Below are positions 1,235 to 37,656 of a DNA stretch of 37,656 nucleotides, one piece after another. The notes beneath the pieces are model-generated. The model was given only the letters and a program-made list of their open reading frames with translations. It searched no databases and was not told where the DNA came from. The stretch is from positions 1 through 37,656 of the forward strand of contig CAKUBI010000020.1 of assembly GCA_934636865.1 (NCBI GenBank), read 5' to 3'. This DNA comes from an uncultured Oscillospiraceae bacterium. Its GTDB lineage: Bacteria; Bacillota; Clostridia; Oscillospirales; Oscillospiraceae. The position numbers and the translations under genes were made by a program. Every line of letters begins with the position of its first letter. The first letter of the stretch is position 1.

Positions 1235-1595
1235 TTTCGTTCTCCTCCTTTTTCGTATAGCGCTTCTGCGTCTGATGATAGTAGCCGAGGTCGAATGCGC
1301 CCTGCTGAGCAAGCGTCATGCGTGCGGGATAGCTCTCGCCGAGCATTCCCTTGAGCGCCATGACCTGCTTGTCGTAGTAAACGCGCTGGCCCGCGTCGAG
1401 CTTGCGCAGGTGCTTCTGATACAGATTGTTCAGCACCGGGAAAATACTTGCGGGCATCGCCGCGGCAGAGTTGAAGTACTTATCCTTGATCGTCGCGTTG
1501 ATGCCGGGATTGGCGGCCTGCTGCACCGCTTCATAAACGGAAAACAGACGGCCGAGCGTGTAGGCGGGGTTGGTGCTCGCTTCGTTCAGGCTCAC
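1227..1595 (-). CDS. cas11c: Cas11c, small subunit from an internal start in cas8c
   Basis: In type I-C systems the small subunit is translated from an internal start within the cas8 message and binds the Cascade belly. Here a strong internal ribosome binding site AGGAGG (1604-1609 on the plus map) is followed after exactly 8 nt by GTG at 1595, in frame with cas8c. The product would be 122 residues, beginning MSLNEASTNPAYTLGRLFSV, the right size and position for Cas11c. An SD of this quality in the middle of a gene is unlikely by chance. That Cas11c arises this way is established for other I-C systems; its use here is inferred from the SD. Confidence 0.85.
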   Translation of the reverse strand: MSLNEASTNPAYTLGRLFSVYEAVQQAANPGINATIKDKYFNSAAAMPASIFPVLNNLYQKHLRKLDAGQRVYYDKQVMALKGMLGESYPARMTLAQQGAFDLGYYHQTQKRYTKKEENENV

Positions 1596-2969
1596 GGTCA
1601 AAACCTCCTCTGGACAGTCCTCGTGTGGATTTTTGAGATAATATGCCTTGATGATCGCCGCGCGGCCCCAGGTGATGCTCCGCTCGGCGCGGATGCGGAG
1701 CATCGTCGCTTCGAGCAGCGAGGCGGGATAGCGCGTGCCGGAAAACACGGCGCGTGCCGCCGCGCCTGCCATCGCGGGCGAGGGCGATTTGTCGCGGGAA
1801 TTTAAATTCACGGTCTCGCGCAGCATCGCCCAGAGCGGAAGATAATTGAATTTTTCATAGGCGGGCCGAACGATCTCCAACCGCTCATAGTGCGCGTTCA
1901 CGTTCTCCATCAGCTTTCCGAAGCTGTCGCGCAGGAAAAAGCGGACGGAGAGCCGCGCCGCGTTGGGCGCAAGCCCCAGAATATAAAACGGCCGCGCCGG
2001 GTCAACGCCGAGGTCATCGCACGGCTGCCCCCCGGCGATGCGCTTGAGCGCCGCGCGCAGATCGTTGTCCGACAGCCCTTCATATGAGCCGCCGCTCATC
2101 ACCGCGCTGAAAAAGTCCGGATAGGCCGCGTCCGCGCCTTCCGCCCAGCAGACAAGCGTTGTGTCGCCGATGAGCTGGACGTTGTTTTTGTCCGCGAGCA
2201 GATGGTTCAGCGCGGCGGTATAGGCAAAGGCCGCGTATTTGCCGACGGGGGCGTTGAAGTTCTGCTCGCGCCCGTAGGAGCAGAAGGCCGGTGCGTTGAA
2301 CGACACCAGCGCCGCGCCGCTGGACTGCGCGTCGCGCACACCCTTGATCGACGGATGCACGGCGGTGATCTCATCCTCCCTGCCCGTTACAAGGCACTGC
2401 ATCCGCACGGCGTCCTCATCGCCGCCGTCGCGATAGCTCCGCCACGCTTCACAGATGGCGGCCTCCTTCTGCGGATAGCAGCCGTCCACGCGGAACAGCA
2501 GGTTCCCGCCAGCCGTCACCTCGTCGAGCTGACCGGCGAGCGCCGGGTGCTCTGCTGCATGCTCCGGCTCCCAGGTGTCGAAAAAAGTCAGGATCGCGCG
2601 GGCCGCAGGGGAATCGACGCCGTCCAGCACCGCATGGTGCAGCTTTGCCGCTGCGGCAAAGCATTCGTGGCTGCGCGCCGGCTTCCCTTTCTGGTCGATG
2701 CCGAGAAGATAGGCAGAGTTGTCCCACAGAAAGTTTGCGGCGACGCCCGCCGTGCGTTTCACCGCCGCCGGCAGCGAAAACACCTGCGGCTGCAGGACGG
2801 TTTTCCTGCCCTTCACCGCTTCCTCCATCGTCGGAACGACCTGCGTCAGCTCGCCGTCCCCGTTCAGACAGAGCGCGAAGCTGATCTTCGCGGGGGCCCA
2901 GCCGGGCGCGGCGATCTCGCCGCGGGCGCGAAGGTCCTCATAATACCGCGTCAGCGCCTGCAGGATCAT
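1227..2969 (-). CDS. cas8c: Cas8c (Csd1), type I-C Cascade large subunit
   Basis: This 580-residue large subunit of type I-C Cascade recognises the PAM and opens the target DNA. It begins MILQALTRYYEDL, a typical Csd1 start, and contains the family-like stretches LVSFNAPAFCSYGREQ, NFNAPVGKYAAFAYTAALN and FYILGLAPNAARLSVRFF. It overlaps the cas5c stop as ATGA (2966-2969) and overlaps cas7c by 8 bp at its end, so the three genes are translationally coupled. The C-terminal 122 residues are also very likely made as a separate small subunit (see cas11c). Length is normal for the family. Confidence 0.96.
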   Translation of the reverse strand: MILQALTRYYEDLRARGEIAAPGWAPAKISFALCLNGDGELTQVVPTMEEAVKGRKTVLQPQVFSLPAAVKRTAGVAANFLWDNSAYLLGIDQKGKPARSHECFAAAAKLHHAVLDGVDSPAARAILTFFDTWEPEHAAEHPALAGQLDEVTAGGNLLFRVDGCYPQKEAAICEAWRSYRDGGDEDAVRMQCLVTGREDEITAVHPSIKGVRDAQSSGAALVSFNAPAFCSYGREQNFNAPVGKYAAFAYTAALNHLLADKNNVQLIGDTTLVCWAEGADAAYPDFFSAVMSGGSYEGLSDNDLRAALKRIAGGQPCDDLGVDPARPFYILGLAPNAARLSVRFFLRDSFGKLMENVNAHYERLEIVRPAYEKFNYLPLWAMLRETVNLNSRDKSPSPAMAGAAARAVFSGTRYPASLLEATMLRIRAERSITWGRAAIIKAYYLKNPHEDCPEEVLTVSLNEASTNPAYTLGRLFSVYEAVQQAANPGINATIKDKYFNSAAAMPASIFPVLNNLYQKHLRKLDAGQRVYYDKQVMALKGMLGESYPARMTLAQQGAFDLGYYHQTQKRYTKKEENENV

Positions 2970-6035: not shown

Positions 6036-8033
6036 CGTCTCGCCGTCCGGGCCGCCATACCGAGAGACGAAGGCCTCCTCCGTCAGCACCGGGATGCCGA
6101 GCGACTTCGCCTTTTTCGCCTTCGATGAAACCGCATCCTCGTCGTTGCTCACGAGGAACGACGTCTTTCCCGACACGCTCCCCGTCACCGCGCCGCCCTG
6201 CTGCTCGACATAGGCCTTGAAGGCACTGCGGTTTTTGAAGATGTGCACATCGCCCGTGATGACAAAGCTCAGCCCCTTGCAGGTCCCCTCGGCTTCCGCC
6301 TTCGGCGCGACGTCTGCAAGCTCGATCTCCGCCATCAGGCGGTCGAAAAGGTCCTTGTTCTCACGGTCGGCAAACCAGTTCAAAATCGCGTTCGAGCGCT
6401 CCGTGCCGATGCCGTCCACGTCCTCAAAGCCCTCGCCGCTTTCGATGCGCGCAAGGAAGCCCTGCGTGCCAAGCGCCGCGATAAGCTTCTTGCCCGCGTC
6501 CACGCCAATGCTCGGGATGCAGAGCGCGAAAATGAGGTGGATGGGATCGACCCTGCGGCTCTTTTCGATCGCCGCCATCAGGTTGGCGCAGGACTTTTCG
6601 CCGAAGCCCTCGAGCCCAACGATCTCGTCCGCGTACCGGTCCAGATGGTAAAGGTCGGCAAAATCGCGCAGATAGCCGCGGTTGACGAACTCGTGCAGCG
6701 TCTGCACGGAAAGGCCGTCGATGTCCAGCCCCGCCTTGCTGGCAAAGCGGACAAAGCGCTTTAAATGCTTCGCTGGGCACTTTGCGTCCGTGCAGCGAAG
6801 CGTCTTGACTCCACTCACGGGGCTCACGCGCACCTCCGTCGCCGCGCCGCAGACGGGGCAGGTCTCCGGGATCTCGTAGCGCCCCTCCGCGCTCACGACG
6901 GCGATGCACTTAGGAATGATCTTATTTGCCTTGATGATGCGAAGCTTCGTCGTTCCGTCCCCGCCCATGCCGAGCCGCTCGAGCTCGCTGACGTTGCAGA
7001 GGCTCGCGCGCGTAACGGTCGTGCCCTCAAGCTGCACGGGGTCGAACACCGCGACCGGCGTGATCGTCGAGGCCGCACAGGACCACTCGATGTGGTCGAG
7101 CACCGTCTCAGCGGACACGTCCGCCCACTTGTAGGCAAGGCCCGCGCGCGTGGCGTGGTGGCCCGTCACGCTGCCGGTGGCGGCGTAGTCGGTGTCGTCA
7201 TAGGTGATGACAAGGCCATCGACGGGCGTGCCCATCTCGCCGGTATCGACCTTTTTCGTCCAGCGCGCGATGGCGTCCGGCAGGTCGCTCGCGCTCGTGC
7301 GCTCGCGCTCGACCGTCGTAAAGCCGAGCTTATCCAGGTAATCCATGCGCGCGCCCCAGGAGCGGATGGTCTTGTCCGTGTGCACGAGCGTGAAGGGCGT
7401 GAAGGTCACGCTGCGCTCTCTGACCTTGTCGAGATTCGTCTTGTCGAGCGCCAGCGTACCGGCGGCGAGGTTGCGGGGGTTGGCATAGCGGTCGTCCGCG
7501 TCCTCGAGCGTATCGTTGATGGCTTCAAAATCCGCATAGGAGATCGTCGCTTCGCCGCGCACGACGAGATGGCCTCTGTCGGCGATCTTCGCGGGAATGC
7601 CGCGGATGGCGGACGCCATATAGGTAATGTTCGTGCCGACGGTGCCGTTGCCGCGCGTCAGAACGCGCGTGAGCGCGCCGCCGTCATACGTCGCCACGAG
7701 CGTCGAGCCGTCTAGCTTCCACGAAAGCCAGATCTCGCGCTCGCCCGCCCAGTCCTGCAATTCTCCGATCTTTTTCGTCTTGGCGAGCGAGAGCGCGGGA
7801 TATTCGTGCGCTTCCTTCTCCCCCTCGCCGTCCATTTCGTTTCCTGAATGGCTCGTCACCTGCGTGGGGCTGTCGGCGCGGACGTAGCCGGTCTCCTTCT
7901 CGAGCGCGGTCAGCTCGTCGAACAGAGCGTCCCACTCGAAGTTCGTCATCTGCTCCTCCTGCCCGCCGTAGTAAGCGTCGGAGGCCGCGTTCAGCTTTGT
8001 TACGATCTCGTCGATCCGAAGGTTTTTGTCCAT
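6027..8033 (-). CDS. ligA: NAD-dependent DNA ligase, variant active site
   Basis: Seals nicks during replication and repair using NAD+. In 668 residues the full LigA order is visible: an N-terminal NAD-binding region with MTNFEWDALFDEL, the nucleotidyl-transfer domain with adenylation lysine K106 in KLDG, E161 in RGEA and NPRN(L)AAG (186-192), an OB region with GTTVTRASLCN, a four-cysteine zinc finger (CPVC...C...C near 392-419), helix-hairpin-helix repeats and a C-terminal BRCT domain (about 585-660). Oddly, the motif IV lysine of the usual DGVVIK is Thr277 (VDGLVIT), and motif V reads LAYKWAD. The start at 8033 has AGAGGA 8 nt upstream. It follows yunB by 38 bp. It may be this lineage's main ligase or a second LigA. 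Confidence 0.9.
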   Translation of the reverse strand: MDKNLRIDEIVTKLNAASDAYYGGQEEQMTNFEWDALFDELTALEKETGYVRADSPTQVTSHSGNEMDGEGEKEAHEYPALSLAKTKKIGELQDWAGEREIWLSWKLDGSTLVATYDGGALTRVLTRGNGTVGTNITYMASAIRGIPAKIADRGHLVVRGEATISYADFEAINDTLEDADDRYANPRNLAAGTLALDKTNLDKVRERSVTFTPFTLVHTDKTIRSWGARMDYLDKLGFTTVERERTSASDLPDAIARWTKKVDTGEMGTPVDGLVITYDDTDYAATGSVTGHHATRAGLAYKWADVSAETVLDHIEWSCAASTITPVAVFDPVQLEGTTVTRASLCNVSELERLGMGGDGTTKLRIIKANKIIPKCIAVVSAEGRYEIPETCPVCGAATEVRVSPVSGVKTLRCTDAKCPAKHLKRFVRFASKAGLDIDGLSVQTLHEFVNRGYLRDFADLYHLDRYADEIVGLEGFGEKSCANLMAAIEKSRRVDPIHLIFALCIPSIGVDAGKKLIAALGTQGFLARIESGEGFEDVDGIGTERSNAILNWFADRENKDLFDRLMAEIELADVAPKAEAEGTCKGLSFVITGDVHIFKNRSAFKAYVEQQGGAVTGSVSGKTSFLVSNDEDAVSSKAKKAKSLGIPVLTEEAFVSRYGGPDGETVD

Positions 8034-10310: not shown

Positions 10311-10760
10311 TGCGAGTAAGACAGACAGTCGCGCGGCGAAGCCGAAAGGCTCGCTGTGAGGAAAGTCCGGGCTCCACAGGGCAAGGATAACGGGTAACGC
10401 CCGCCCAGAGCGATCTGAGGAAAAGTGCAACAGAAATAGACTACCTATGGACCTTTGCCTCTTCGAATTTGCAGCAAAAAGCGCAAGCGGCTTTGCCGCT
10501 TACGCCCCCCTATTGACGTGATGGAGGACACAGGTGCAGATCGGAAGAGGCAAAGGGGCATAGGAAAAGGTGGAAAGGTGCGGTAAGAGCGCACCCGTCG
10601 GCTCGAGAGTGTCCGATGCTGTAAACTCTATCCGGAGCAACACCGGTATGGGAGCATATAGGTTGGCCCGACCGCTCCCGGGGTGGCTGGAGTACCGCGG
10701 CAACGCGGCGCGTAGATAGATGACTGTCAAATACAGAACCCGGCTTACAGTTTTGCTCGC
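10311..10760 (+). ncRNA. rnpB: RNase P RNA with an extended P12 arm
   Basis: The catalytic RNA of RNase P, which removes tRNA 5' leaders. Recognised by the universal core GAGGAAAGTCCGGGCTCCAC (about 10358-10377), the CAGAAA near 10430, the GGTGCGGTAAGAGCGCACC hairpin (10577-10595) and the 3' element ACAGAACCCGGCTTA (10734-10748). The end helix P1 pairs GCGAG at 10312-10316 with CTCGC at 10756-10760. At about 450 nt it is longer than usual. The excess is an arm at the P12 position, where 10452-10464 pairs perfectly with 10544-10556 and carries an inner hairpin 10485-10501. It has its own promoter and terminator. Confidence 0.97.
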
Positions 10761-10769
10761 GCAAAATAT

Positions 10770-27024: not shown

Positions 27025-28248
27025 TTACGCCTTAACGCGGTGGAAGACCTTCTTGCCCTTGCGGACGATGACGCCGTCGCCCTCGAAGCGTTCGCGCGCA
27101 AGGCTCTCGTCGATGGACGTGACCTTCACATCGTCGATCGTCACGCCGCCCTGCTGAACCAGGCGGCGCGCCTCGCCGCGGGACGGGCACAGGCCGGTCG
27201 TGACCAGCATGGAAAGAACGTTGATGCCGCCGTTTTCAAAGTCGGTGTCCGTCAGCGTGCTCATCGGCATATTGGCATTATTGCCGCCCGCACCGAACAG
27301 CGCCTTCGCGGCTTCCTCCGCCTTCTTCGCTTCCTCTTCCCCGTGCACGAGCGCGGTGAGCTCGTAGGCGAGGATCTCCTTGGCGCGGTTGAGCTGACTG
27401 CCCTCCCACTTGTCCATCTCGTCGATCTGCTCGAGCGGCAGGAACGTGAGCATGCGGATGCACTTCAAAACATCCTGATCGCCCACGTTGCGCCAGTACT
27501 GGTAGAAGTCGAAGGGGCTGGTCTTGTTCGGGTCGAGCCAGACGGCGTTGCCCGCGGTCTTGCCCATCTTGTGCCCCTGCGAGTCGGTCAGCAGCGTGAT
27601 GGTCATCGCGTGTGCGTCTTTGCCCAGCTTGCGGCGGATGAGCTCCGTGCCGCCGAGCATGTTGGACCACTGGTCGTCGCCGCCAAACTGCATGTTGCAG
27701 CCATAGTGCTGGAAGAGGTAGTAGAAGTCGTAGGACTGCATGATCATGTAGTTGAATTCAAGGAAGGAAAGGCCCTTCTCCATGCGCTGCTCATAGCACT
27801 TCGCGCGCAGCATGTTGTTCACGGAGAAGCATGCGCCCACCTCGCGCAGCAGCTCGATATAGTTGAGGTTCAGCAGCCAGTCGGCGTTGTTGACCATGAT
27901 GGCCTTGCCCTCGCCGAAGTCGATGAAGCGTTCCATCTGCCGCTTGAAGCACTCGGCGTTATGGTTGATGTCCTCCTTGGTGAGCATCTTGCGCATGTCC
28001 GTGCGGCCCGAGGGGTCACCGATCATGGTCGTGCCGCCGCCGATCAGCGCAACGGGCTGGTTGCCCGCCATCTGAAGGCGCTTCATCAGCGTCAGCGCCA
28101 TGAAGTGCCCCGCCGTCAGGCTGTCGGCCGTGCAGTCAAAGCCAATGTAGAACTTGGCCTTGCCCGCGTTGACCATTTCGCGGATCTCTTCCTCGTTCGT
28201 GACCTGCGCCAGCAGGCCGCGCGCCTGCAGCTCTTCGTAAATACCCAT
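27025..28248 (-). CDS. tyrS: Tyrosyl-tRNA synthetase
   Basis: Charges tRNA-Tyr. The 407-residue class I enzyme has KFYIGFDCTADSLTAGHFMAL, GGGTTMIGDPSGRTDMR, FLEFNYMIMQSYDFYYL, the tyrosine-pocket FGGDDQWSN and the KMSKS-type loop HKMGKT. A C-terminal S4 RNA-binding domain covers about 340-407. The HIGH motif reads T45-A-G-H48, lacking the first histidine. Expression is controlled by the T-box leader directly upstream, whose specifier reads TAC (Tyr). SD AGGAGGAA precedes the ATG. Confidence 0.97.
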   Translation of the reverse strand: MGIYEELQARGLLAQVTNEEEIREMVNAGKAKFYIGFDCTADSLTAGHFMALTLMKRLQMAGNQPVALIGGGTTMIGDPSGRTDMRKMLTKEDINHNAECFKRQMERFIDFGEGKAIMVNNADWLLNLNYIELLREVGACFSVNNMLRAKCYEQRMEKGLSFLEFNYMIMQSYDFYYLFQHYGCNMQFGGDDQWSNMLGGTELIRRKLGKDAHAMTITLLTDSQGHKMGKTAGNAVWLDPNKTSPFDFYQYWRNVGDQDVLKCIRMLTFLPLEQIDEMDKWEGSQLNRAKEILAYELTALVHGEEEAKKAEEAAKALFGAGGNNANMPMSTLTDTDFENGGINVLSMLVTTGLCPSRGEARRLVQQGGVTIDDVKVTSIDESLARERFEGDGVIVRKGKKVFHRVKA

Positions 28249-33491: not shown

Positions 33492-35335
33492 CGCAGCACC
33501 TCCGCAGCTTTTTCCACAAGCGACTCCGCGTCCAGTCCGAATTCGCGCTGCAGCTCCTCCGTCGAGCCCTGCGCGGGGAACGCCTTGCCCAGGTTGCACA
33601 GCTCCATCCGCTCCGGCGCGATATGGTTCCATTCGAGGATAGCCGCCATGCGCTGCCCCATGCAGCCGACGCCCGCGCACTCCTCCGCCACCAGCATCGC
33701 CTTCGTTTTGCCCACGACCTCGCGCATGTCGCGGTCGTAGAGCGGCGAGATGGCGTTGATCTTTACCACGCGCGCCCGGATGCCGCGCCGCTCAAGGAGC
33801 TCCGCCGCGTCCAGCACGTTGTTGATCATCATGCCGTAGGCGCAGAGGGTGATGTCCTCCCCCTCGCGCAGCACAACGAGGTTGTCGCGTCCGCTGTCGG
33901 CCTTGTATGTCCCCTCGCCGCCGCGCGGATAGCGGATGGCGACGGGACCCTTGATCTCGTTGACCGCACGGCGCAGCATCGTGCGCAGCTCCGCGAAGTT
34001 CGACGGGCAAAGCACCGTCATATTCGGGATCTCGGAGAGGAACGTCGCGTCAAAAATGCCGTGGTGCGTCTCGCCGTCCGCGCCGACCATGCCCGCGCGG
34101 TCCACCGCGCAGACCACGTGCAGGTCAGAGAGCGCCGTATCGTGGATGAGCTGGTCATAGGCGCGCTGCAAAAAGCTCGAGTAGATCGCGACCACCGGCG
34201 TGAGGCCCTGCTTGGCCATGCCCGCGGCCATGGCGACGGCATGCCCCTCGGCGATGCCGACATCGAAAAAGCGGTCGGGGTACTGCTCAGAAAATTCATG
34301 CAGGCCCGTGCCGTCCCGCATCGCGGCGGTGATGGCGCAGACGCTCGCGTCGCTTTTCGCGATCTTGCAGAGCTCCTCGCCGAACACGGCGGAAAAATCC
34401 GTCTTTTTCTCGCGCGGCACGCCCATCTTCGGATCAAATTTCCCCACGCCGTGATAGCGCTCCGGCTCCCGCTCGGCGGGCGGATAGCCCTTGCCCTTTT
34501 TTGTGTGCACATGCACGAGCACCGGGCAGTTCAGGTCCTTCGCCCACTTGAGCGTGTTGGTGAGCTGACCGACGTCGTGCCCGTTCACGGGGCCGAGATA
34601 GGTAAAGCCCATATCCTCGAACATCGTCGAATTCGGCAGCAGCGCCTTTTTGACATTCGTTTTGAGCTGATGATTAAAATCGTACACCGCGCGGCCGACC
34701 GCATTGCGGTCGAGCAGGTCGCGGTACGCCTTTTTGAATTCGTAATACGCGGGCTTTGAGCGAAGTAATCCCAGATGCTCGCTCACCGCGCCTACGTTGC
34801 CGTCGATCGACATGCCGTTGTCGTTCAGGATGACGATCAGCGGCTCGCCGCTCGCGCCTGCGTTGTTGAGTCCCTCGTAGGCAAGGCCGCCGGAGAGCGC
34901 GCCGTCGCCGATCAGGGCGAGCACGGAATAATCGTCGTGCAGCAGCGTGCGCGCCCGGGCCATGCCGAGCGCCACGGAGACGGAGTTGGACGCATGGCCC
35001 GCGATGAACGCGTCGTGTGTACTCTCGCGCGGCTTCGGAAAGCCGGAAAGTCCGCCGTACTGCCGCAGCGTCGAAAATTCATTCATCCGCCCGGTGAGGA
35101 TCTTATGCGTGTAGCACTGGTGCCCCACGTCGAACACCAGCCGGTCGCGTGAGGTGTCGAACACGCGGTGGATGGCCACCGTCAGCTCGACCGCGCCGAG
35201 GTTGGACGCCAGGTGTCCGCCCGTCTTGGACACGCTTTTCAGCAAAAATTCACGCAGCTCTGTGCAAAGAAGCTGCGTTTGCGGGTCATTCAGGGTTTTG
35301 ATATCGCTCGGATCATGGATCTTCTCAAGAATCAA
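33488..35335 (-). CDS. dxs: 1-deoxy-D-xylulose-5-phosphate synthase
   Basis: A thiamine-diphosphate enzyme making DXP from pyruvate and glyceraldehyde-3-phosphate, the entry step of the MEP isoprenoid pathway. The 615 residues include GGHLASNLGAVELTVAIH, FDVGHQCYTHKILTGR, the ThDP motif GDGALSGGLAYEGLNNAG and the C-terminal transketolase half with DVGIAEGHAVAMAAGMA and RAGMVGADGETHHG. No ATG fits; the TTG at 35335 is chosen, with AAGGA 6 nt upstream. It follows the OapA-like gene by 13 bp. Confidence 0.97.
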   Translation of the reverse strand: MILEKIHDPSDIKTLNDPQTQLLCTELREFLLKSVSKTGGHLASNLGAVELTVAIHRVFDTSRDRLVFDVGHQCYTHKILTGRMNEFSTLRQYGGLSGFPKPRESTHDAFIAGHASNSVSVALGMARARTLLHDDYSVLALIGDGALSGGLAYEGLNNAGASGEPLIVILNDNGMSIDGNVGAVSEHLGLLRSKPAYYEFKKAYRDLLDRNAVGRAVYDFNHQLKTNVKKALLPNSTMFEDMGFTYLGPVNGHDVGQLTNTLKWAKDLNCPVLVHVHTKKGKGYPPAEREPERYHGVGKFDPKMGVPREKKTDFSAVFGEELCKIAKSDASVCAITAAMRDGTGLHEFSEQYPDRFFDVGIAEGHAVAMAAGMAKQGLTPVVAIYSSFLQRAYDQLIHDTALSDLHVVCAVDRAGMVGADGETHHGIFDATFLSEIPNMTVLCPSNFAELRTMLRRAVNEIKGPVAIRYPRGGEGTYKADSGRDNLVVLREGEDITLCAYGMMINNVLDAAELLERRGIRARVVKINAISPLYDRDMREVVGKTKAMLVAEECAGVGCMGQRMAAILEWNHIAPERMELCNLGKAFPAQGSTEELQREFGLDAESLVEKAAEVLR

Positions 35336-35348
35336 TGCTATTCCTTCT

Positions 35349-35930
35349 TTATCTGTCAGGATGCAGCACCGACAGCACCTTCGCCGCCAGATACACAACA
35401 TCCTTGCTCTTTTTCATTGCGATCTTTTTGCCGATCGCCTTGCCGCCGATCGTCAGCCCTGAGATCAGCGCCGTGACCACAGTGGACACCACGATGCTGC
35501 GCCAGCCGAAGCTGTTTTGCAGCAGCACGACGATGACCGTCGCGGTCGAGCCGCTGACGATGCCGCAGATATCGCCGACCACGTCGTTGCAGAACGAGGC
35601 GACCTTTTCCGCGTTGCGGATGAGGCTCAGCGCCTCCTTCGCGCCCTTGACGCGATGCGCCGCCATTGAGTTGAACGGCTTCGGATTCGCCGCCGTCACG
35701 GCGACGCCGATGATATCGAACATGATGCCGAGCACGACAAAAAGCAGCAGGATCAGCGTCGCGGTCACATAGCCCGCGTCCTCCAGCAGCGCGCCGGAGC
35801 ACAGGCTCATTGCTGCGGAGAGGGCCACAGCGATCAAAAATACGCGGATCACCCAGCGCGCGTGGCTGGGGGTCTTGTCCGTCTTTTTGGGCTTTCGGTC
35901 TCCTTCGTTTTCCACGGTCTCTTTCTCCAT
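35349..35930 (-). CDS. oapA: OapA-like OLE-associated membrane protein
   Basis: A 193-residue protein with a charged N-terminus (MEKETVENEGDRKPKKTDKT), about four hydrophobic segments (VIRVFLIAVALSAAMSL, ATLILLLFVVLGIMFDIIGVAV, the VVGDICGIVSGSTATVIVVLL region, and IVVSTVVTALISGLTIGG) and the conserved-looking middle stretch MAAHRVKGAKEALSLIRNAE. Such proteins are loosely related to DUF21. The gene lies between a large structured RNA region and dxs, the position of oapA, whose product binds OLE RNA and brings it to the membrane in Bacillus halodurans. The SD is weak, and a 6-bp hairpin (35935-35951) sits just before the ATG. Identity rests on size, topology and synteny. Confidence 0.82.
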   Translation of the reverse strand: MEKETVENEGDRKPKKTDKTPSHARWVIRVFLIAVALSAAMSLCSGALLEDAGYVTATLILLLFVVLGIMFDIIGVAVTAANPKPFNSMAAHRVKGAKEALSLIRNAEKVASFCNDVVGDICGIVSGSTATVIVVLLQNSFGWRSIVVSTVVTALISGLTIGGKAIGKKIAMKKSKDVVYLAAKVLSVLHPDR

Positions 35931-35957
35931 TGACTACCATTTTTGATGGTAAGATAC

Positions 35958-36608
35958 GCTAAAACAGCGGCAGCCGCAAAAGGTAATCCTGCGGCATAGG
36001 TCGGGTTGGCTTTCCCCGCAGCGCACCTCCCGTTGCCGATAGAGGCGGTTCCCCCTTAGGCGCTGCACCCCGTTGTTGCCGGACGGGGTACCCGATTGCC
36101 ACTTAGTCCGCACTGTAACCCTCCTGCTGCCCTTCCGACAGCCTAGGTGATTTCCACCCCGGAGTCACACCGTTTCTTATCCTCTTTTGCAGGAAAAATT
36201 TCAAGGAGCGATCGCACCTCGCTCTTGGCCGGAGTCTGTGCGTTGTTCTCCTATCCGGATTCCCCACGCAAGGCAGGCTACACTGCACACAGCGTTCGCG
36301 GCACGAAGGCCGGGTAGCACCGCAATGCAGGTTCATATCCTGTCCCGTACCAAAGTCGATACCCAAAATGGGAGTCCGCTCCGGCACAGCAACAGGTCTC
36401 CGCAGAAACAGGGTCGGCTCCCCTATGCCATTAGGGGACGCCCGGGATCCGCAGGCGCAGCTCTCGCTTTTGCCTCCCTTCAGCACCCACCCCAAACTGG
36501 GCGTAAGAAGCAGGCACCAAAGGCTTCACAGTTGTGCCCTTTAAAGGATTTTTAGGCCCTTCTTAGGAAACGGCAGATCCGACTAGGATACTGCGCCGCT
36601 GTTTAGCA
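35958..36608 (-). ncRNA. ole: OLE RNA (large structured non-coding RNA)
   Basis: About 650 nt without a credible gene, starting right at a sigma-A-type promoter and ending just before the OapA-like gene. The two ends form one helix: GCTAAACAGCGGC (36607-36595) pairs with GCCGCTGTTTTAGC (35971-35958) with a single bulged base. Inner stems include 36438-36433 with 36424-36419 (TCCCCT/AGGGGA type) and 36089-36083 with 36073-36067 (ACCCCGT/ACGGGGT). Length, structure and position upstream of oapA-dxs-tlyA fit OLE RNA (usually near 600 nt), a membrane-bound ribonucleoprotein RNA of Bacillota linked to alcohol, cold and magnesium stress. I identify it by locus, size and structure, not by alignment. 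Confidence 0.85.
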
Positions 36609-36614
36609 GGGCCT

Positions 36615-36643
36615 ATTATACACCTTTCAAAATGAATATGCAA
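36615..36643 (-). promoter_or_regulatory. Promoter of the OLE RNA / oapA / dxs transcript
   Basis: TTGCAT (36638-36643), 17 bp, TATAAT (36615-36620) on the minus strand. Predicted start near 36608, coinciding with the first base of the RNA's closing helix. Confidence 0.88.
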
Positions 36644-36786: not shown

Positions 36787-37656
36787 TTACTTGTTGCCGT
36801 TGACCATGGAAGCGATCTCAGCCGCGAAGTTCTCCTGCTTCTTCTCGATGCCCTCGCCCTTCTCGAAGCGAACGGCGGTGTTGAAGCTGACCTTGCCGCC
36901 CAGCGCCTTGGCCGCATTGTTCATATACTGCTCGACCGTGACGTCGCCGTCCTTGACGAAGGCCTGCTGGAGCAGGCAGTTCTCGGCATAGAACTTGTTG
37001 AGCTTGCCCATGACGATCTTTTCCTTGACCTGGTCAGGCTTGCCCGCCATCTTCGGGTCGTTGGCCATCTGGCCGAGCATGACTTCCTTCTCCTCGTCCA
37101 GAACGTCCTGCGTGACCTCGCTCTTGTCCCAGAAGCGGGGGTTGAGCGCGGCGATCTGCATGGCGACGTCCTTGCCGATCTCGGTTGCGTCGCAGCCCTC
37201 GACGGTCAGGTTGACGATAACGCCGATCTTGCCCTTCATGTGGACATAGGGGACGGAGAAGCCGTCGGCAATGCGGGCAAAGCGGCGGATGCTCATGTTC
37301 TCGCGGATGGCGAGGAACAGCTCGTCCTTGGCGTCCTTGACGGTGCCGCTGCCGCTGACCCAGGGGCAGCCCATCAGCGCGTCAACATCGGCGGGGTTCT
37401 CCTTGGCGACGACCTGCGCCACGCCCTTGACGAAGTTGTTGAACGGCTCGCCGTTGGCGACGAAGTCGGTCTCGCAGTTGACCTCGACCACAACGCCGAC
37501 ACCGTCGATGACGGTAGCGTAAGCCATACCCTCAGCAGCCACGCGGCTGGCCTTCTTCGCCTGGGAGGCGAGGCCCTTCTCGCGCAGATACATGACGGCC
37601 TTTTCCATATCGCCCTCGCACTCGATGAGGGCCTTCTTGCAGTCCATCAGGCCGCA
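36787..37656 (-). CDS. tsf: Elongation factor Ts, cut by the right edge
   Basis: Guanine nucleotide exchange factor that recycles EF-Tu. The visible 290 residues begin inside the N-terminal UBA-like domain (CGLMDCKKALIECEGDMEKAV) and continue through VVVEVNCETDFVA, GKIGVIVNL and the core, with the C-terminal VEQYMNNAAKALGGKVS and a full stop at 36787. The gene start, some 15-20 codons further, is outside the window. An in-frame ATG at 37647 is internal and is not the start. Its terminator follows 22 bp downstream. Confidence 0.97.
   Translation of the reverse strand, partial: CGLMDCKKALIECEGDMEKAVMYLREKGLASQAKKASRVAAEGMAYATVIDGVGVVVEVNCETDFVANGEPFNNFVKGVAQVVAKENPADVDALMGCPWVSGSGTVKDAKDELFLAIRENMSIRRFARIADGFSVPYVHMKGKIGVIVNLTVEGCDATEIGKDVAMQIAALNPRFWDKSEVTQDVLDEEKEVMLGQMANDPKMAGKPDQVKEKIVMGKLNKFYAENCLLQQAFVKDGDVTVEQYMNNAAKALGGKVSFNTAVRFEKGEGIEKKQENFAAEIASMVNGNK

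Follow-up and report, generated by a model that had tools for sequence, protein, structure and literature searches.

A full-length OLE RNA with its OapA partner in an Oscillospiraceae bacterium, and putative ArgR half-sites at OLE promoters

OLE RNA belongs to the largest structured RNAs of bacteria and still has no settled biochemical function, and control of its expression offers a direct handle on that function. The locus studied here lies in a 37,656-nt stretch of DNA, the whole of which we call the window, from a member of the Oscillospiraceae close to Oscillibacter sp. ER4. It raises two questions: whether a region ahead of a small membrane-protein gene is an OLE RNA, as an earlier note on this DNA had claimed, and what might govern its transcription. 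That note had asked for a search with the Rfam OLE model. When the window was scanned with all Rfam families, three matches reached the gathering threshold, and the best of them was OLE (RF01071) on the predicted minus strand at 36615-35951, a 665-nt match that covered model positions 1-616 of 616 without truncation at 370.4 bits (gathering cut-off 50; E = 1.8e-105). The same region had been described as a gene-free gap; two ORFs, of 122 and 130 aa, do overlap it, but each falls within the stretch covered by the full-length RNA match. Relatives were collected by scanning an OapA alignment (the window protein and 28 of 120 listed homologues, among which some are probably chimeric) against bacterial genomes, which yielded at least 537 confirmed stretches, the best 80 of which were kept. 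The covariance model scored above its cut-off in 29/29 tested relative genomes (378-505 bits) versus 0/14 controls, and when the RNAs were placed on a tree by maximum likelihood, that of the window was sister to the OLE of Oscillibacter sp. ER4, with 93% identity and 100/100 support. We regard it as practically certain that the locus holds a full-length OLE RNA together with its OapA partner; OLE is an established family, with about 2,800 Bacillota genomes given as carrying it (PMC11332333), and the window RNA is one more member.

The first and last bases of the RNA had been proposed to form one long helix. Read from the sequence, the 5′ arm GCTAAACAGCGGC (36607-36595, minus strand) pairs with the 3′ arm GCCGCTGTTTTAGC (35971-35958, minus strand) over 13 pairs with one bulged U, so that the RNA measured from helix to helix spans 36607-35958 on the minus strand, or 650 nt. 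This end helix is absent from the Rfam consensus, the region being unpaired in the RF01071 model, and it starts 8 nt downstream of the promoter described below, at the predicted 5′ end. Covariation was scored in 72 OLE RNAs, i.e., the window and 71 listed relatives. The end-helix pairing was formed in 86.0% of cells, a figure lowered by some alignment rows that lie one column out of register there, and 82 cells were changed on both sides as against a shuffled mean of 28.3. The covariation score was 0.261 versus 0.165 after shuffling, and sliding the partner gave at most 0.158. The end helix is real. In the same 72 RNAs the helices of the Rfam structure covaried as well, with double changes in 84/166 pairs (a total that includes the 13 end-helix pairs placed one column off, which contribute 1 of the 84) and a score of 0.270 versus 0.137 shuffled. 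Between the end helix and the membrane-protein gene lies a small hairpin, TACCAT-CAAAA-ATGGTA, at 35935-35951, without a T run.

Directly downstream of OLE, the gene at 35930-35349 (minus strand) encodes a CNNM membrane protein of 193 aa when read from ATG. Its sole Pfam domain is PF01595 (CNNM; 28.8 bits against a cut-off of 28.4), the Pfam search found no CBS or CorC domain in it, and the NCBIfam search returned no name for it. A CNNM domain without CBS or CorC, directly adjoining OLE, bears out its naming as OapA. In the accessible text of PMC11332333, OapA is described as a CNNM protein lacking CBS/CorC, unlike MpfA. The window protein resembles OapA in size (about 190 aa, about 21 kDa), in its lone CNNM transmembrane domain and in its position; it has the CNNM domain in common with the Mg2+ exporters of the MpfA/CorC type and differs from them in lacking a CBS or CorC_HlyC domain. 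The start codon is probably GTG at 35915 (188 aa) rather than ATG at 35930 (193 aa), since GGAG immediately precedes it and this codon is where several homologues begin. A D-x3-D pair, D116 and D120, was invariant in the 29 rows of the OapA alignment, and by spacing alone it is likened to the published D100/D104 of OapA. The AlphaFold model of the protein (mean pLDDT 48.8) was too poor to compare folds. Genes for MpfA-type proteins (PF03471) were found in 7/29 OLE genomes versus 11/14 controls, in line with the published anticorrelation, and none was found in ER4.

The gene order that had been read downstream, oapA-dxs-tlyA-nadK-argR-recN, was recovered by Pfam and NCBIfam searches, all on the minus strand: dxs at 35335-33488 (TIGR00204, 686 bits; start inferred, the longest ORF beginning at 35401), tlyA at 33491-32667 (predicted start, with the longest ORF beginning at 33680; domains S4 and FtsJ), nadK at 32673-31792, argR at 31802-31335 (PF01316, 79.3 bits; PF02863, 84.2 bits), which encodes the arginine repressor and is the candidate regulator of the operon, and recN at 31306-29621 (SMC_N/RecN domain). 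Among the best 80 of the at least 537 stretches, dxs lay downstream of oapA in 80/80, followed in most by nadK, argR and recN, and OLE was found in 79/80, the contig of the remaining locus, L076, starting just before oapA. In two loci, against the tandem rule, OLE and oapA lie apart by about 5 kb (L051:2141-8001) and 2.3 kb (L075:1-2742), with an intervening gene that gives a weak, sub-threshold match to a solute-binding protein.

The position of the RNA could also suggest that the 5′ region is a long, riboswitch-like regulatory leader of oapA and no free-standing RNA. It lies directly upstream of oapA and no terminator was listed between the two on the minus strand, so that the OLE promoter would also drive oapA. 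This reading is nevertheless very improbable given the full-length OLE match and given that OLE is a free RNA of about 630 nt in H. halodurans, according to the accessible text of PMC9723947; moreover, another gene parts OLE from oapA in L051 and L075, and OLE therefore need not be a leader.

The promoter that had been assigned to OLE, TTGCAT-17-TATAAT (36643-36615, minus strand), was read directly from the sequence, with TTGCAT at 36643-36638, a spacer of 17 nt and TATAAT at 36620-36615. The layout TTGNNN-17-TANNNT was present at this position in 72/72 OLE loci, compared with 1.8 on average after local shuffling, these loci being the window and those 71 of the 79 listed OLE-bearing relatives that have enough upstream sequence. 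A generic promoter scan did not list the site, TTGCAT matching TTGACA only in part, and listed one other promoter-like site at 36680-36651, where 0.7 were expected. Upstream lies tsf (36787-37656, minus strand; TIGR00116, 246 bits), which runs off the window, followed by a terminator hairpin, AAAAAGAGGCCTGA-TTCG-TCAGGCCTCTTTTT, at 36764-36733 on the minus strand; the hairpin is plain in the sequence, though the pattern scan for terminators did not list it. The earlier note's statement that tsf stands upstream behind a terminator holds for the window and fails as a family trait. Among the 66 listed relatives whose upstream sequence extends for 1.3 kb or more, ispA (with a query confirmed as a polyprenyl synthetase) lay within 600 bp upstream of OLE in 34, the arrangement seen in Bacillus; tsf was upstream in one besides the window, namely ER4; and neither gene was adjacent in 31, in 4 of which ispA lay further off. 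With tsf confined to ER4 and the window among the listed relatives, an ancestral order in which tsf preceded OLE finds no support. The promoter of its own that had been ascribed to OLE is likewise present, and its layout in 72/72 loci means that it is no consequence of the tsf neighbour; as a novelty it does not stand, since the ole gene of H. halodurans also has one (PMC9723947, accessible text). Compared with H. halodurans OLE and RF01071, the window RNA has the full-length secondary structure, its own promoter and the same arrangement of oapA immediately after the RNA, followed by dxs and a similar gene cluster; it differs in the 665-nt match with longer hairpins, in having tsf upstream rather than ispA, and in the putative ArgR half-sites at its promoter.

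The window's score of about 370 bits is below that of each of the 29 scored relatives, which might hint at a decayed relic of OLE. That reading is scarcely tenable, because the RNA is full length, keeps its conserved motifs, belongs to a family whose helices covary, and retains promoter and oapA intact. With a full-length structured RNA, its own promoter, an OapA-type partner and a conserved gene order, the window OLE gene appears functional.

Overlay of the promoters revealed an inverted repeat, rich in A and T, which sits either at the -35 box or upstream of it. Its halves correspond to TGNATA/TATNCA, which we take to be the ArgR half-site, with argG promoters serving as the test in this analysis. 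The 72 OLE promoters contained 179 exact half-sites, as against a shuffled mean of 24.5 and maximum of 41. The palindrome TATRCA-N8-TGYATA was exact in 26/72 promoters and within one mismatch in 51/72, and it ranked strictly first among such sites of the whole locus in 52/72 (8 ties), as against 5/72 (28 ties) for the reversed pattern. It overlaps the -35 box in some clades and lies about 13 bp further upstream in others. The canonical inward box TGNATA-N2-TATNCA (searched with WW in the middle) was exact in 0/72 OLE promoters, its best match having one mismatch in 12, two in 26 and at least three in 34. The OLE promoters resemble the operators of ArgR/AhrC (ARG boxes) in having TGNATA/TATNCA half-sites, as found upstream of argG, and differ in that most carry one outward N8 pair and the canonical inward box is incomplete. 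In the window itself, four putative half-sites were counted at 36663-36633 on the minus strand: TGCATA (36663-36658), TGAATA (36651-36646) and TGCATA (36642-36637) in direct order, and TATTCA (36638-36633). The window promoter has two mismatches to the palindrome, as its clade mostly has direct half-sites in place of the palindrome of its relatives, so that in the window's own case the argument for ArgR comes from the half-sites and from its kin. Two or more mismatches were seen in the window and 16 other ArgR-bearing loci.

The same half-sites were found upstream of argG in OLE-bearing genomes. Among 29 complete argG genes (two sets of 9 and 20), the upstream region held an exact ARG box, TGNATA-N2-TATNCA, in 14, at a distance of 80-99 nt from the coding match, an outward N8 pair in 6 and an outward N7 pair in 7; shuffled means for the ARG box and the N8 pair were 0.002 to 0.016 per set, the shuffle comparison covering N2 and N8 only. 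In genome-wide counts the relaxed pattern TATNCA-N8-TGNATA occurred 39 times in 15 genomes as against 13 for the reversed control, with 6 sites at OLE and 4 upstream of argG. Other operator-like sites, hand-picked from the genome lists and read for ORFs only, lay inside an ORF in 7/10 cases, and some of these sites may belong to a further regulon.

These data could also mean that OLE and OapA are as published and that the half-sites serve a regulator other than ArgR, or form a family-specific extended -35 or UP element, a reading we hold to be unlikely. At full stringency the palindrome is nearly exclusive to OLE, unlike the sites of a many-gene regulon: of the 7 exact occurrences in 17 genomes, 6 fell at the OLE promoter, and with the fuller consensus at no more than one mismatch 8/9 distinct sites in 15 genomes were at OLE. 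In addition, the right half-site overlaps the -35 box in many loci, and part of the conservation of TTGYAT is accordingly that of the promoter; and two ArgR-bearing loci, L027 and L028, keep argR and have no half-site. Against such an element stand the same half-sites upstream of argG, in both the inward N2 and the outward N7/N8 arrangement, the palindrome lying upstream of and separate from the -35 box in several clades, and the fading of the half-sites where ArgR is gone.

This fading was followed in 50 genomes, 45 of which contained ArgR (PF01316). The five that did not are those of loci L006, L031, L065, L066 and L072, which also have no argR between nadK and recN, the nadK and recN matches there beginning 901-912 bp from one another versus at least 1,328 elsewhere; genome completeness is not stated and many of the genomes are MAGs, so an absent argR or argG may reflect missing sequence. 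The OLE promoter is readable in four of the five ArgR-less loci, and the palindrome was present within one mismatch in 0/4. No half-site was found in L065, L066 and L072, and L006 had two in the counted stretch and retained just one out of three core half-sites seen in its sister L005, as against a mean of 2.4 half-sites in the 68 other loci, 11 of which had at most one and two had none. L065, L066 and L072 form a single clade, and their sister L059 has retained argR along with an exact palindrome. The losses require at least two changes on the tree, and with three of the four ArgR-less promoters in one clade only two independent losses are seen. ArgR was present without a clear argG in 15 genomes, ER4 included, and 8 of these 15 keep the OLE palindrome within one mismatch; argG matches below 30 bits were counted as no argG (G011, G020, G046, G047 and ER4), and assembly gaps may explain some of the absences.

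Taken together, we put the probability that OLE and OapA are as found here and that the OLE promoter is controlled by ArgR at roughly 0.65, on the strength of sequence comparison. OLE would lead an OLE-oapA-dxs-tlyA-nadK-argR-recN transcription unit, and ArgR would control the OLE promoter by binding TGNATA half-sites located at the -35 box or just upstream of it. With OLE counted as the first gene, argR is the sixth, and the unit would therefore be autoregulated and the output of OLE tied to arginine. Repression may be likelier than activation, since the half-sites overlap the -35 box. A pull-down in H. halodurans is reported to have shown binding of ArgR to OLE RNA, and in vitro confirmation is mentioned there as unpublished (PMC10898510, accessible text); for that reason OLE RNA may, as a speculation, titrate its own regulator. 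We lean, a shade less firmly, toward the wider view that the OLE operon of the Oscillospiraceae is an autoregulated ArgR target, in which ArgR would sense arginine and set OLE/OapA transcription, OLE RNA may feed back, and ArgR in genomes without argG may be chiefly a regulator of the OLE operon. The putative ArgR half-sites at OLE promoters are what is new here: an ArgR operator at OLE was not found reported in the literature searched, including the accessible parts of PMC10898510, PMC12054373 and PMC12265935. A cis-regulatory site of the argG kind that fades where ArgR has been lost would tie OLE to arginine and nitrogen status independently, and it would give meaning both to the reported interaction of ArgR with OLE and to the presence of argR within the operon. 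In three genomes of the window's own clade, where direct half-sites mostly replace the palindrome, a further ArgR gene lies elsewhere than in the OLE operon (G001:C94:2836-3027, G006:C10:71639-71833 and G004:C48:14570-14752).

As to the complex in which the RNA would act, other OLE partners were sought in the relatives. A gene for OapB was found in ER4 just before infA, its product matching PDB 7k9b, 'OLE-associated protein B' (E = 5.7e-8), and a candidate OapC in ER4 matched YbxF (E = 1.5e-9); the neighbors of the latter, which by eye we take to be rpoC and rpsL, and the gene before oapB, presumably map, were recognized in the same way. Matches to PF00467 (KOW), considered as OapB, were found in 29/29 genomes at one or two each and were rejected, since the frame lengths fit NusG and L24. 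According to PMC9723947 and PMC12265935, OLE is kept at the membrane by OapA, and the complex is required when cells face cold, alcohol, Mg2+ or poor-carbon stress. By analogy with the published work on H. halodurans, we infer that the window OLE would be held at the membrane by OapA, bind OapB, OapC and bS21, and act in stress and metal-ion homeostasis.

Several minor observations were made in the course of the analysis. Eleven OapA homologues (P0099, P0102, P0104, P0107, P0112, P0113, P0117, P0032, P0035, P0040 and P0046) look hybrid by eye, one half being near-identical to the window protein or its close kin and the other coming from distant kin, with the halves joined near the conserved NDVVGDICGIVSGST stretch; these are probably metagenome assembly chimeras. 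A scan of viral contigs for OapA gave no matches. One contig, L070, has OLE twice, with equal scores and on opposite strands (1238-1946, minus strand, and 7133-7841, plus strand), perhaps an assembly palindrome. Elsewhere in the window, Rfam identified a class A RNase P RNA with a long hairpin insertion at 10313-10763 on the plus strand (247.5 bits), and a T-box leader at 28580-28337 on the minus strand precedes tyrS (27025-28248), which places a T-box-controlled tyrS downstream of the OLE operon.
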